From an uncultured Saprospiraceae bacterium (GTDB taxonomy: Bacteria > Bacteroidota > Bacteroidia > Chitinophagales > Saprospiraceae): a DNA stretch of 44,229 nucleotides. A program made the translations under genes and the position numbers. The notes under the pieces are model-generated. The model was given only the letters and a program-made list of their open reading frames with translations. It made no database searches and had not been told where the DNA came from. The DNA lies in the NCBI GenBank assembly GCA_937974575.1, contig CALJVI010000171.1, forward strand, positions 1-44,229. Reading direction: 5' to 3'. Position 1 is the first letter of the stretch; every line of letters begins with the position of its first letter. Shown piece by piece: positions 775-34,682 of the stretch.

Positions 775-790
775 TATTTTTTGGGCGATA

Positions 791-845
791 CCTATACTAA
801 ACAAGGCTACCATGAGAAACTCATGGTAGCCTTGTTTAGTATAGG
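791..845. terminator. Perfect 26-bp inverted repeat with 3-nt loop, probable terminator or structured RNA
   Basis: cctatactaaacaaggctaccatgag / aaa / ctcatggtagccttgtttagtatagg, 17 nt after the stop of the first CDS. No U-tract follows. Confidence 0.7.
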
Positions 846-965
846 TCCGGGCTATGCAGGGGTGCGCTGTCGCTCCCGTCCTACCGTTCCGTTCCTCCAC
901 GGTACGACTGACTCTGGCTTTGCCTCAAGAGGGCTCTCCCGCACAGAGTCACCCTTTCTATCCCT
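846..965 (+). other. GC-rich intergenic element (copy A)
   Basis: GC-rich block in an AT-rich genome, with 'tccgggctatgcaggggtgcgctgtcgctcccgtcc' resembling the core of the copies at 13825, 29340 and 29572. Confidence 0.45.
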
Positions 966-991
966 ATCGCATTTGAAATCTGACTAAATAA

Positions 992-13824: not shown

Positions 13825-14008
13825 TAGTATAGATTCTGGGTGGCTGTGTGGGCGAGGAATGTATGAGGGGTAGGAAGGAGCCGCCTGTTAAGGTGGCGTC
13901 TCTGGAGCGCTTTTTAGCGACAGAGACCGGAGTGACAACGGAGTCCTGGATGGCCCGACCCTGACTGACGCCTTTTTTCGGCGGCATGTCTGGGGCATAC
14001 CCAAATAA
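13825..14008 (-). other. GC-rich intergenic element (copy B)
   Basis: Minus strand 'ttatttgggtatgccccagacatgccgccgaaaaaaggcgtcagtcagggtcgggccatcc' shares 5' boundary and core with copy D. Confidence 0.6.
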
Positions 14009-29571: not shown

Positions 29572-29815
29572 TATTTATTTGGGGGTGCCACTGATACGTC
29601 ACCGAAGGGGGTGCCGATCAGTGTCGGGTCGTCCGTTTGTATTCAGCAGTCTACCAGCCTGTAGGCTTAGGTCTTCTCAGCATCTGCTCCCGAATACTCG
29701 GGGATCAGCTACTGCTCATCCCAGCCTACTAGGCAGCTATCCTACTTCATATCACTTCCACCCCTCACCCAAGGCAAATTTGAGGCTTGGGAGGAAAGTG
29801 GGCGAATAAAGATGG
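29572..29815 (+). other. GC-rich intergenic element (copy D)
   Basis: 'tatttatttgggggtgccactgatacgtcaccgaagggggtgccgatcagtgtcgggtcgtcc' matches copy B on the opposite strand. Confidence 0.6.
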
Positions 29816-30150
29816 AAAAAATGTAAATGTATTGTTAGAAGTTCTGTTTCTCTCCTTTTGGCCCATTTTGATTATCTATAAAATAGGAAAAGGTAGATTA
29901 TAAGTTGATAACCAGTATATTAAGGCCCTATACAGGTTCAGTATAAAAATTGGCTATTTACCCTAATGCGTATCTTTAATTTGTCATAGTGTAATAATAA
30001 CACAAAGATATACGTATTTTCTACACTAAGTTTTTAATTTCCTTTGACGTTTATTTAACATATAGGGAAATGAATTGTATTTTCGGGATGTATTACTTTC
30101 GTTAAAAATTATTTTCGAAATATTTTTTTACTTTAAAATTGACATTTCAA

Positions 30151-33108
30151 ATGAAAAAACAAATTACAAAATGGCTTTTGCTATCATGTTTTGTCATGAT
30201 TGGGGTCGCTGGTTTTGCTCAAAAATCAGTAAGCGGTATCATCACTGATGCTGACAATGGAGAACCCCTGATCGGTGCAAGCATCTTAGCAAAAGGAACA
30301 ACAGTAGGTACTATTACGGATATTGATGGATCCTACTCACTCAATGTTCCAGAAGGAACAGAGGCAATTGTCGTTTCTTACACAGGCTACTCAGACCAAG
30401 AAATTCTTATTGGAGACCGTACAACTATAGATGTTGGTCTTGGAGCAGGAACTATACTTGATGAGGTAGTGGTTGTAGGTTACGGTACGCAGAAATCTAA
30501 AGAAATCACAGGTTCTGTTGCTTCTGTCGGAGAAGAGGACTTTAATGTTGGTAACGTTACTTCTGCAGCTCAATTGCTTCAAGGAAAAGTTGCTGGTCTT
30601 ACTATCTCTAAAGGAAATGGTGATCCAAACGGTTCACTTGGAATTAGACTTAGAGGTCTTTCAACTATTGGTGCTCAAGCAGAACCATTAGTGGTTCTTG
30701 ATGGGGTACCTGGTGCTTCTCTTTCTAACATTGATCCTCAAGATATTGCATCTATTGATGTATTGAAGGATGGATCCGCAGCAGCTATTTATGGAACAAG
30801 AGGATCTTCAGGTGTAATCATCGTGACTACTAAGAAAGGATCTAAAGGCAATGCAAAAATAACTTATAGTGGGTATGGTTCTTCTGAATCTATCGCTAGA
30901 ACTCCAGCGATTGCTACAGCTCAAGAGTTTAGAGATGCTGGTGGAAATGATGCAGGTGCATCAACAGATTGGTACAAAGAGATTTCTCAAACAGCTTTAT
31001 CGCAATCACATAATATCGCATTATCAGGTGGTTCAAATAATACAAACTATAGAGTTGCTTTTAATTATCGTGATCAAGCTGGTGTGGTTAAGAATACAGG
31101 CTTTAATCAGTTGAATACGAATGTTTCTATCAACCAAAAAGCACTAGATAATAAGTTGAACTTAGGTGTTAACCTTATTGTGACTGATAGAAATTCACAG
31201 CTTGGTTTGCCAGAAGCATTTAGATATGCTACTACGTTTAATCCAACATCTGCTGTATTTAATGATGATGGAACATATAATAATCCAAGTGGATTTGATG
31301 TATTTAACCCAGTAGCTATGGTTGAACTTGGAGAACTTAACCAAGAAAGAACTGAAATATTAGCAAACATGACTGCTTCATATAATATCACACCTGCATT
31401 GAAGGTGACTGGTACTTATGCAAAGCAAAAGAAGGATACGGATGTATCTGAATACTACCCAAGTAATTTGGTGTACAGAAATGGTCAAAGAACAGGTACT
31501 GCACGTAGAGCGAATGTGAAAACTTCAAACGACCTATATGAAGGAACACTTCAATATATTGGTGAAGCAGGAAATCTAAATTATACATTGTTAGCAGGAA
31601 CATCTTTCCAAAAGTTTAATTCTGGCGGATTCATAGGTGATAACGCTGATTTTCTTTTAGATTTTAATGGTTCAAATCAATTAGGAGATGGTGCTGACAA
31701 AAATGATGGTTCTGCACTTTTAGGTTCTTTCGGTAACTTTTACAGATTGCAAGCACAGTTTGGTAGAGTAAACTTTAATATCGACGATACTTACTTTGTG
31801 TCTGCAAGTGTAAGAAGAGAAGGTTCAGATAGATTTGGTGAGGCTAACAGATATGGAGTTTTCCCTGCCGTAAGTGCTGGTGTAAACTTGGCAAAATTAG
31901 CTAATCTAGAAAATGTTGACAACCTGAAGCTTAGAGTTGGATATGGTGTGACGGGAAACCTTCCTAGTGAGAACTATTTATTTGAATCAGTTTTCGTTCA
32001 AGGACCTCAGTTCTTCTTCAATGGAGGATTTGTTCCATCATATGGACCACTTAGAAATGCTAACCCAGATTTGAAATGGGAAACGAAGAAAGAATTGAAC
32101 TTAGGTTTCGATTTCGCACTTTTAGATTCAAAATTGAATGGTTCACTTGATGTGTTTAACAGAAAGACGGAAGATCTTATCTTGAATACACCTGTACCTG
32201 TACCTCCGAATTTAGCTGCATTTACATGGAAAAATGTTGCTTCTCTTACTACAAACGGGGTAGAGCTACTGCTTAATTATGACGTTGTTAATAATGAAAA
32301 CTTTTCTTACTCTCCAACTTTGATATTTACTACTTACAAAACAATCTTGGATACATACTTGGAAGATACTCCTTCGCAGTTTATTACAAATCTTGGTGCT
32401 CCGGGTCAAAACCTTGTGGGTTTAGGTTTGAACTTACTTGAAGAAGGTAAAGAATTGGGTCAAATAGTGGCACCTGAATTTGCTAGACTTGATGATTTAG
32501 GAAATGCATTGTTTATAGATCAAAGCACTGGTGAAGCAATTGAAAAGACTGCTTTGGAATCTGAAGATTGGATAATAGTAGGTAATGGACTTCCAGATTT
32601 TGAATTGTCTCTTAATAATACATTTACTATTGGCAATTTTGATTTAAACCTATTTTTTAGAGGTGCATTTGGACATAGCTTAGTAAATACTTATAGAGCA
32701 TTTTATGAAGCGTTTCCTGATAATGCAGGAGCTAACTTCGTTAGAACAGATAAAGCAACTGAAGGCTTAAAAGCAGCTTCTTATAGTTCTGAGCATGTTG
32801 AAGATGCAAGTTTCGTTAAACTTGATAATGCTTCTTTGGGTTATACTTTTGATACTGCAAGTTCAAAAATCGGTTCATGTCGTTTATACCTTGCTGGTCA
32901 AAACCTTTTCACAATTACAGGATATACAGGTGTAGATCCTGATGTAAGATTAGGTGATCCTGGATCAACAGATAATGGTAGAAGAGTAAATGGTGATATC
33001 TTTGGATTGGAAGGAGCTCCTTTAAATATATTAGCACCAGGTATAGATAGAAGAAATACATACTTCTCTACGAGAACTGTTACTTTAGGACTAAACATAT
33101 CTTTCTAA
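30151..33108 (+). CDS. SusC/RagA family TonB-linked outer membrane protein
   Basis: Signal peptide, carboxypeptidase-like domain 'VSGIITDADNGEPLIGASILAKGTTVGTITDIDGSYSLNVPEG', TonB box 'LDEVVVVGYGTQ'. Start set to ATG at 30151. Confidence 0.96.
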   Translation: MKKQITKWLLLSCFVMIGVAGFAQKSVSGIITDADNGEPLIGASILAKGTTVGTITDIDGSYSLNVPEGTEAIVVSYTGYSDQEILIGDRTTIDVGLGAGTILDEVVVVGYGTQKSKEITGSVASVGEEDFNVGNVTSAAQLLQGKVAGLTISKGNGDPNGSLGIRLRGLSTIGAQAEPLVVLDGVPGASLSNIDPQDIASIDVLKDGSAAAIYGTRGSSGVIIVTTKKGSKGNAKITYSGYGSSESIARTPAIATAQEFRDAGGNDAGASTDWYKEISQTALSQSHNIALSGGSNNTNYRVAFNYRDQAGVVKNTGFNQLNTNVSINQKALDNKLNLGVNLIVTDRNSQLGLPEAFRYATTFNPTSAVFNDDGTYNNPSGFDVFNPVAMVELGELNQERTEILANMTASYNITPALKVTGTYAKQKKDTDVSEYYPSNLVYRNGQRTGTARRANVKTSNDLYEGTLQYIGEAGNLNYTLLAGTSFQKFNSGGFIGDNADFLLDFNGSNQLGDGADKNDGSALLGSFGNFYRLQAQFGRVNFNIDDTYFVSASVRREGSDRFGEANRYGVFPAVSAGVNLAKLANLENVDNLKLRVGYGVTGNLPSENYLFESVFVQGPQFFFNGGFVPSYGPLRNANPDLKWETKKELNLGFDFALLDSKLNGSLDVFNRKTEDLILNTPVPVPPNLAAFTWKNVASLTTNGVELLLNYDVVNNENFSYSPTLIFTTYKTILDTYLEDTPSQFITNLGAPGQNLVGLGLNLLEEGKELGQIVAPEFARLDDLGNALFIDQSTGEAIEKTALESEDWIIVGNGLPDFELSLNNTFTIGNFDLNLFFRGAFGHSLVNTYRAFYEAFPDNAGANFVRTDKATEGLKAASYSSEHVEDASFVKLDNASLGYTFDTASSKIGSCRLYLAGQNLFTITGYTGVDPDVRLGDPGSTDNGRRVNGDIFGLEGAPLNILAPGIDRRNTYFSTRTVTLGLNISF

Positions 33109-33134
33109 ATCAAAAAATATAAAATTGAAAATAA

Positions 33135-34682
33135 ATGAAATATATAAATAAAATATTGTTTATCACCTTGGCTATGTTAGCCATGCACTCTTGCTCGGAT
33201 CTTGAGCCAGAGTTTGGAGATGTGATTCCAGAAAGTGAATACTTCGCAAATGAAGCTGCGTTTGTTTCTGCTTTGGGTTCAGCATATACAAATCTATATG
33301 GTTTTATGAACCATGGACAACTCTTCTCACTTGATGTAACATCATCTGATGAGGCTGCAATTACTCACAAAGGACCGGATTGGGAAGATGGTGGAACATG
33401 GTTGAGAATGCACAGACATACATTTTCTGATACTGAAGGTGTTTTTGGTAATGTATGGAATTTTTGTTACGGTGGAATTAGTACTTGTAATAGGCTGATT
33501 GCAACTTTTGAAAACGCAGGTGGAGCTGATTCAGCTGCATTTATTTCTGAGTTGAAAGTTTTGAGAGCTTATTACCATTTAGTGATTCTTGACGTTTTTG
33601 GTAATGCACCAATTTTGGACACTTTTGATGTTCCAGAAGGTTTCAAACCAACTACAGTATCTAGATCTGAATTATATGCTTGGGTTGAAAATGAATTCAC
33701 AACTAATGTTCCTGAATTACCGAAGGAAAATTCAAGTGCTACTTATGGTAGAGTTAACTATTACGCTGGACAAGCAATGATGGCTAGCTTATACTTAAAC
33801 GCTGAAGTATACACTGGTACTGCTCAATGGGACAAATGTGTTGCTGCTTGTGATGAAGTTATCAACGCTAATGCATTTTCTTTAGAAGGAAACTACTTTG
33901 CCAACTTTGCGGTTGACAATGCAGGTTCTTCTGAAAACATCTGGGTAATTCCTTACGATGGTGTTAATGCAGGTGGATTTAATCTAGTACAGATGACGCT
34001 TCACTATGAATCACAACAAACTTTTGAGTTAGTTGATCAGCCATGGAATGGATACTGTGTACTCGCTGATTTCTACAACGCATATGAAGAAGAAGATGTT
34101 AGATTGACTGGTGGTTCAAGAGCTTACGGTGTAATGTTGTCTGGTCCTCAGTATTCTTCTAGTGGAGTTTTATTGGAAGATGGTGCTGATTCATGGTACC
34201 CGGATAACGCTTTTGAAGGTAATGAAAGAGCAATTGTATTTAATCCAGAAATTAACGAATTAGCTCCAGGTGCTTATAGAGATGGTGGAGCAAGATTGTC
34301 TAAGTATGAATATGAAATAGGTTCTGTTAATAGTATGAGTAATGATTTTGCAATATTCAGATATGGTGAAATCTTACTAAACAAAGCGGAAGCTATGTGG
34401 AGAATGAATAATGGTTCAGGTCCTGCTTTGGATATGGTAAATATGATCCGTAGTCGTGCTGGATTGGATGGTTTCGCGGCCTTAACTGCTGAAGACTTCC
34501 TTGCTGAAAGAGGTAGAGAACTTTGTTTTGAAGCTAAGAGAAGACCAGATCTTATTAGATTTGGAAAGTGGAATGATGCATGGTGGGAAAAAGGCGCTTC
34601 TGAGCCTTTCAGATCGATCATGCCTATTCCAGCTGATCAAATTTCTTTAAATAGTAACTTGGTGCAAAATCCAGGCTACTAA
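33135..34682 (+). CDS. SusD/RagB family nutrient-binding outer membrane lipoprotein
   Basis: Lipobox 'LAMLAMHSCSDLEPEF', C-terminal 'ERGRELCFEAKRRPDLIRFGKWNDAWW...RSIMPIPADQISLNSNLVQNPGY'. Confidence 0.96.
   Translation: MKYINKILFITLAMLAMHSCSDLEPEFGDVIPESEYFANEAAFVSALGSAYTNLYGFMNHGQLFSLDVTSSDEAAITHKGPDWEDGGTWLRMHRHTFSDTEGVFGNVWNFCYGGISTCNRLIATFENAGGADSAAFISELKVLRAYYHLVILDVFGNAPILDTFDVPEGFKPTTVSRSELYAWVENEFTTNVPELPKENSSATYGRVNYYAGQAMMASLYLNAEVYTGTAQWDKCVAACDEVINANAFSLEGNYFANFAVDNAGSSENIWVIPYDGVNAGGFNLVQMTLHYESQQTFELVDQPWNGYCVLADFYNAYEEEDVRLTGGSRAYGVMLSGPQYSSSGVLLEDGADSWYPDNAFEGNERAIVFNPEINELAPGAYRDGGARLSKYEYEIGSVNSMSNDFAIFRYGEILLNKAEAMWRMNNGSGPALDMVNMIRSRAGLDGFAALTAEDFLAERGRELCFEAKRRPDLIRFGKWNDAWWEKGASEPFRSIMPIPADQISLNSNLVQNPGY

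Follow-up and report, generated by a model that had tools for sequence, protein, structure and literature searches.

A scattered, apparently undescribed non-coding repeat family of Bacteroidota with covariation that points to folded DNA

The window, a stretch of 44,229 nucleotides from an uncultured Saprospiraceae bacterium, contains a GC-rich interval at positions 13825-14008, which raises the question of what kind of element such an interval represents. The first-pass annotation, which was made from the letters alone, described it as copy B of a dispersed family with ordered blocks and suggested a mobile or structured non-coding element that is also present in other Bacteroidota. The blocks were found where the annotation had placed them in copies B and D, and the two 200-bp bins containing B and D have a GC content of 0.54, versus about 0.38 elsewhere. 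Further copies were searched for and found both in the source genome, an incomplete assembly (89.7%, 314 contigs) in which genes were called with a simple codon model, and in other genomes. A covariance model (R1) was built from an alignment (A1) of 37 copies, and the best 150 of 437 genome candidates were scored with it. This yielded 145 matches, the 37 training copies among them, and together with copy D, which came from a window-only search, the total is at least 146 copies in 3.3 Mb, a lower bound because 150 of the 437 candidates were scored. The similarity exceeds that of controls: the head motif (≤2 mismatches) occurs 123 times in the genome versus 34 times for the reversed control, and a pairing-demanding descriptor gave 52 matches at a score of ≥12 in 0.9 Mb and none on the reversed sequence. 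The descriptor requires perfect P1 and P3 helices (see below), so counts drawn with it cannot test these pairs. The GC-rich stretch is thus a member of an apparently undescribed, scattered non-coding repeat family.

The covariance model and the descriptor identified three copies in the window (Table 1), and no copy C, as the annotation had named it, could be identified. Copy B, for which the model match spans 13857-14008, belongs to the training set of R1, and copy D and the third copy lie outside it. In 28 genome copies located by the head motif, the block order is fixed: TTTGGG is followed by four bases that vary and by CC, after which come a variable hairpin, GGGTCGGGCYATCC, and a second block; the copies end with variable hairpins, CTTCCTATCCCT, the reverse complement of the four bases, and C. 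In terms of structure, TTTGGG leads into a 4-bp closing helix (P1) of free sequence, which is followed by a hairpin that varies between copies, TC, and a second helix; further variable hairpins and a T come before the partner strands, and a C ends the element. On the minus strand, copy B runs exactly from TTTGGG at 14005 to the C at 13861; the annotated interval therefore holds the whole copy, but its tract 13825-13860 lies outside the element. The order of the blocks was read correctly, but folding involves the complement of the described strand, and the pyrimidine-rich end, although present, provides the partner strand of both closing helices and is not a separate tract. The copies often contain long perfect palindromes of up to 27 bp, and the C.T mismatch is shared without exception by 119/119 phylum copies. 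The third copy starts ~5 bp past a stop codon.

Table 1. Copies of the element in the window and the parts of copy B, in window coordinates.
Feature	Position	Strand	Evidence
Copy B, entire element (TTTGGG ... CATAC)	13861-14005	-	R1 E-value 9.9e-27
Invariant head TTTGGG, 5' limit	14000-14005	-	Conserved in 51 own and 114 phylum copies (flank logos)
P1 5' strand (TATG), free in sequence but complementary to the tail	13996-13999	-	A1 columns 10-13/240-243, 100% paired, first position with 4 pair types
P2, variable hairpin stacked on P1	13959-13995	-	Alignment; elsewhere perfect palindromes up to 27 bp
TC linker and P3 5' strand GGG	13954-13958	-	Covaries with CCC (other copies GAG/CTC, AGG/CCT)
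C.T mismatch, TA/TA-type pairs, TCC bulge, P3b 5' strand AGGA	13944-13953	-	Alignment
P4: C-G/G-C switching pair 13943-13928 and mini-hairpin 13939-13932	13928-13943	-	Columns 124-139 (CG 25, GC 12, unpaired 0) and 128-129/134-135
Variable hairpins P5/P6	13880-13927	-	Present when the complement strand is folded as ssDNA; alignment
3' strands of P3b and P3, TCCTTCCTACCCCT (pyrimidine-rich tract of the first-pass annotation)	13866-13879	-	Covariation
P1 3' strand CATA, then the final C, partner of the third G in TTTGGG	13861-13865	-	Columns 9-13/240-244
Copy D, long variant without the P4 TCC mini-hairpin	29578-29770	+	R1 E-value 7.8e-11, descriptor score 13
Third copy, P1 CGAT/ATCG, 27-bp perfect P2 palindrome	780-970	+	R1 E-value 1e-17, descriptor score 14

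The element is about 75-220 bp long, and its copies are highly diverged. No two distinct copies of the source genome are more than ~72% identical over their aligned length, and the single pair that is 100% identical is probably one stretch at two contig ends; with no near-identical copies, there is no sign of recent spread. All six close pairs of copies are arranged tail-to-tail. One copy of the same genome (L032:6388-6601) contains ~75 bp of AT-rich sequence within a variable hairpin loop. A short form of ~95 bp, with a GGTG closing helix and without P4, was observed at L051:2344-2436 and L064:6147-6244 and, on the minus strand, near position 1500 of L013 and L010. Each short-form copy is followed by a second conserved block (CTCTACGCG..TCCG..TTTGCCGTGCTTTGATGCC..GGCATGTCGCGA), which may be a second domain or a second repeat family.

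Covariation in A1, assessed with the kind of model that the annotation had proposed, was strong. The 23 pairs gave 94.8% standard pairs, and 188 double-compensated cells were counted, compared with 44.9 in shuffles and 12-31 in slid-partner controls. P1, with four free positions and a G-C pair, was 100% paired, and as many as four pair types occurred at a position; P3 alternated among GGG/CCC, GAG/CTC, and AGG/CCT, and one P4 pair switched between C-G (25 copies) and G-C (12 copies) with no exceptions. An independent phylum alignment gave 68 double-compensated cells versus 24.5 in shuffles, with four types at the N-N' pair; in this descriptor-selected set the pairing of P1 and P3 was imposed by the selection, and that of N-N' and P3b was not.

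We examined the distribution of the family with a phylum model (R2, from alignment A3), which detected the element in 31 of 198 genomes, 27-33 copies being found in several Flavobacteriaceae-type genomes, as the annotation's suggestion of a presence in other Bacteroidota would have it. Within the same genus, G002, G004, and G005 gave at least 70-71 matches each from 71 scored candidates, and G001 and G003 gave none; a second model also found none in 110 kb from these two genomes. A DNA pattern searched against GTDB genomes matched at least 119 stretches, distributed over Flavobacteriales, Cytophagales, Sphingobacteriales, Chitinophagales, Bacteroidales, and Saprospiraceae; the matches listed also include one genome of Fibrobacterales and a few records that name no phylum. 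Of these loci, 112 hold the full element, though the tail was outside the pattern. Carriage by phages is near absent, only 2 of 2.9 million viral contigs carrying the element. The phylum-wide patchiness and the near absence from viral contigs indicate that the element is widespread, patchy, and chromosomal. In Rfam 15, the window gave a single tRNA at the gathering score, and seven loci searched at E-values up to 1 gave two chance-level matches (E about 0.5-1) and nothing else. No description of the element was found in the literature, which was searched by sequence strings and by topic.

The history of individual copies could be followed at orthologous sites. Relatives whose flanking proteins are 58-92% identical carry elements at corresponding sites with rewritten hairpins, near Gfo/Idh, SulP, tsaD, thrS, fusA, and pepP and 1 kb off lipA (names taken from protein starts). 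Differences in the closing helix mostly affect both arms, as in the change from ACTT/AAGT to GCTT/AAGC at fusA, and P3 changed from GAG/CTC to GCG/CGC at the pepP site. Among relatives of the query species at a Flavobacterium crtZ locus, seven have the element, three have spacers of 10, 38, and 42 bp in its place, and one retains a head and tail remnant; the empty sites are from species too distant for the exact junction to be read. These compensated changes at orthologous sites, together with the present, empty, and remnant states at crtZ, indicate inheritance with a maintained fold plus gain or loss. Between two Flavobacterium species at this locus (L316 in G436 and L318 in G460), the hairpin arms are near-identical and the loop is inverted (AGAAAAA versus TTTTTCT), which is a signature of inverted-repeat recombination or template switching. 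In many Algoriphagus genomes, an element with differing hairpin arms adjoins ileS (L182, L191, L193, L229, L231, L233, L264, L270).

The called copies are intergenic and occur in convergent, co-directional, and divergent intervals alike. The annotation had noted that copies lie upstream of, and are co-directed with, the nearest gene, which failed as a rule. Among the 55 own copies with two called neighbors, the downstream gene was co-oriented in 33 and not in 22, and the upstream gene was co-oriented in 32 and opposed in 23; in the phylum set, the downstream gene was co-oriented in 51 and not in 53, and the upstream gene was co-oriented in 42 and opposed in 62. There is thus no clear preference of orientation relative to genes. 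Where the upstream gene is co-oriented, the head often lies 2-20 bp past its stop codon. The flanks are T-rich before the element and A/G-rich after it (51 own and 114 phylum copies). Direct repeats between the flanks were no longer than in permuted pairs (4.18 versus 4.17 and 4.03 versus 3.93), indicating no target-site duplication, and no inverted repeats between the flanks were detected. A role as terminator or promoter was rejected because placement lacks a consistent orientation; an intrinsic terminator is further contradicted by the occurrence of all orientations, divergent regions included, and by a T run that precedes the element and an A-rich end that follows it. Copy D precedes a region (30139-34682) with an open reading frame whose product begins like a SusC-type TonB-dependent receptor and, after it, a 515-amino-acid frame that may, judging from the start of its sequence, encode a SusD-like partner.

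With respect to the replication strand, the copies of G000 showed no bias (22/19), and G210 gave 8/8 for matches of ≥50 bits. In G237:C1 (27 matches), all high-scoring copies between 0.49 and 2.21 Mb are on the minus strand, and nearly all of those beyond, up to 3.37 Mb, are on the plus strand. The copies change strand at ~2.28 Mb, which does not coincide with the switch in GC skew at ~1.52 Mb, and the runs fit only if dnaA marks the origin. We do not claim a replication-strand bias, because G143 does not fit a bias of the G210/G237 type and GC skew places the switches of G237 elsewhere.

We hold with moderate confidence that the family is a REP-like, DNA-structured extragenic element whose folded single strand or cruciform would be recognized by a structure-specific enzyme. 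The absence of target-site duplication, recent spread, a demonstrated replication-strand preference, and a cognate enzyme in our searches counts against this explanation. Its main rival, which we consider rather improbable, is a DNA-structure site maintained by the host, at which a nucleoid protein, a topoisomerase, or a repair protein binds a cruciform or hairpin, as gyrase or IHF does at some BIMEs, and which is not mobile now and is kept by selection locus by locus. Such a site fits the vertical persistence at orthologous positions with changes that keep Watson-Crick pairing, the ~94% Watson-Crick pairing at core pairs of highly diverged copies, the conserved loop nucleotides, and the intergenic location of all called copies. 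However, the family was undetected in G001 and G003 of the same genus and in most Bacteroidota, indicating that it is dispensable, and no rule emerged that ties the position or orientation of the copies to genes or replication.

We next asked whether the fold belongs to DNA or to RNA. RNA under selection would show common G.U and rare A.C on its strand. In the core pairs of 86 distinct copies, read on the written strand, we counted 1762 Watson-Crick, 15 G.T, 28 A.C, and 61 other cells, and in the palindromic hairpins, which were found without a preference for G.T, 1247, 3, 11, and 38, respectively; combined, 18 G.T and 39 A.C stand beside 3,009 Watson-Crick cells. Alignment A2 was fitted to the structure of the model, so pairing was favored in it, but not Watson-Crick over wobble pairs specifically. 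The T and acceptor stems of tRNAs at the same loci, a small control, gave 22 G.T, 1 A.C, and 183 Watson-Crick cells, and G.T differed between elements and tRNA stems with a Fisher p of about 6e-17. The share of G.U would be ~1.3% on the complement strand and 0.6% on the written strand, versus 10.7% in the tRNA stems, and wobbles make up about 1% of the P1 cells. A single P3 pair is exceptional, being C.A on the written strand (G.T on the complement) in 14 of 84 copies, copy B included.

Folding predictions distinguished the two strands. As single-stranded DNA, the complement strand was more stable than the written strand in 79 of 85 copies, and it recovered a larger fraction of the consensus pairs, both with DNA parameters (0.51 versus 0.25) and with RNA parameters (0.38 versus 0.19). 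For copy B, the fold of the complement (z = -3.2; 1 of 200 shuffles equally stable) resembles the structure derived from covariation, and that of the written strand (z = -1.5) does not. The conserved unpaired bases on the complement read GA, GGA, G.A, and GAA, purine-rich motifs of a type that stabilizes loops in RNA and DNA alike. A structured RNA, such as a ribozyme or regulatory RNA made from the complement of the strand that had been annotated, would explain the branched fold with its purine-rich loops, the covariation, and the one P3 pair that would alternate between A-U and G.U. We nevertheless regard it as unlikely, since G.U is nearly absent on either strand, P1 included, fewer consensus pairs are recovered with RNA than with DNA parameters, position and orientation relative to genes are inconsistent, and no Rfam family matches. 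The scarcity of G.T, which is rarer than A.C, and the better folding of the complement with DNA parameters point to folded single-stranded DNA, not RNA. The annotated alternative of a mobile or structured non-coding element is thus borne out in its strong covariation, but the pattern is of the DNA type and not that of a transcribed RNA.

We compared the family with known repeat systems. It resembles REP sequences, BIMEs, and REPINs as a high-copy, extragenic, non-coding repeat with a DNA-level fold, tail-to-tail inverted pairs, and vertical persistence. REPs, however, are single hairpins of 20-40 nt that carry a GTAG/CGTC foot and flank a RAYT gene, whereas this element is branched, 75-220 bp long, and closed by a free 4-bp helix, without a foot, a flanking RAYT gene, or a master sequence among its highly diverged copies; the limits in the copies examined are TTTGGG and N4-C, and the GT[AG]G (or CGTC) tetranucleotide is absent. 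MITEs and other small mobile repeats (ERIC/RU, Correia, BOX, the P. gingivalis MITE) are likewise short, non-autonomous, intergenic, and of similar length, and presence/absence polymorphism at an orthologous site was found here too (crtZ in Flavobacterium), but the element lacks a conserved terminal inverted repeat and a target-site duplication, and we found no parent insertion sequence for it. A classical MITE was rejected, as P1 is complementary within a copy and differs between copies and target sites are not duplicated. IS200/IS605 ends and integron attC sites are recognized as a folded single strand, as is proposed for this element, and tolerate sequence change if the fold is kept. The single imperfect attC hairpin with R/L boxes, the two separate subterminal hairpins of IS200/605, and its Y1 transposase were not seen here, and no lagging-strand preference was shown. 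Bacteroidota RNA motifs in Rfam are intergenic and covarying as well, but none matched the window copies at the gathering score, and G.U is nearly absent from the covarying pairs of the element.

RAYT subclass 2.6 of Bacteroidetes is reported to be flanked by "atypical secondary structures", and no GT[AG]G has been reported for it either (PMC6006769). That the element is the cognate REP of a RAYT (TnpA-REP) transposase, notably of this subclass, is very improbable: the phylum, the number of copies, their extragenic location, the inverted pairs, and the folding at the DNA level suit REP biology, and an element lies about 740 bp from one subclass 2.6 gene, but this spacing is about what element density gives by chance, two subclass 2.6 genes in the element-rich relative G004 are flanked by different short hairpin units (CCACGG..CCGTGG with TACACGTRTCNAACTTAG), no RAYT gene was found in 0.88 Mb around phylum loci or in 0.9 Mb of the source genome, PF01797 (Y1 transposase) had no match in the element-rich genomes G000 (89.7% complete) and G017 (97%), and a GTAG foot is lacking. 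The assignment to subclass 2.6 was rejected because its genes carry this different repeat. The repeat units at the G004 genes (L290:1-2400, L291:1400-3200) are inverted, such as CCACGGCTCCAGCCGTGG..TACACGTGTCTAACTTAG, and are probably the "atypical" REP of the subclass.

The REP-like explanation could operate as follows. In an element that is single-stranded or extruded as a cruciform, P1 and P3 would close the complement into a branched fold that has internal loops rich in purines and a GAA-type mini-hairpin and that brings both ends together. A putative structure-specific DNA-processing enzyme would recognize this fold and, by analogy with RAYT enzymes acting on REP sequences, may have spread the element in the past into T-rich intergenic sites, after which the settled copies are passed on vertically. 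The arms and hairpins would stay Watson-Crick through selection on the DNA fold, hairpin-templated copying, or both. More tentatively, we suggest a Bacteroidota-wide class of folded DNA that is distinct from REP/RAYT and has its own structure-specific enzyme, with a branched fold whose sequence-free closing helix would be kept at more than 100 chromosomal sites by hairpin-templated correction or selection. Such a class would be the DNA equivalent of a structured RNA family.

The element is a common and apparently unnamed feature of Bacteroidota chromosomes, with dozens of copies in several Flavobacteriaceae and more than 140 in the source genome. The scarcity of G.T relative to A.C offers a clean criterion for separating DNA-level from RNA-level structure, which would keep such repeats from being filed as regulatory RNAs. 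If the proposed explanation is true, folded single-strand DNA elements would extend past REP, IS200/605, and attC hairpins to a complex fold that is branched and covaries much as an RNA does, and a structure-specific DNA enzyme would be predicted.
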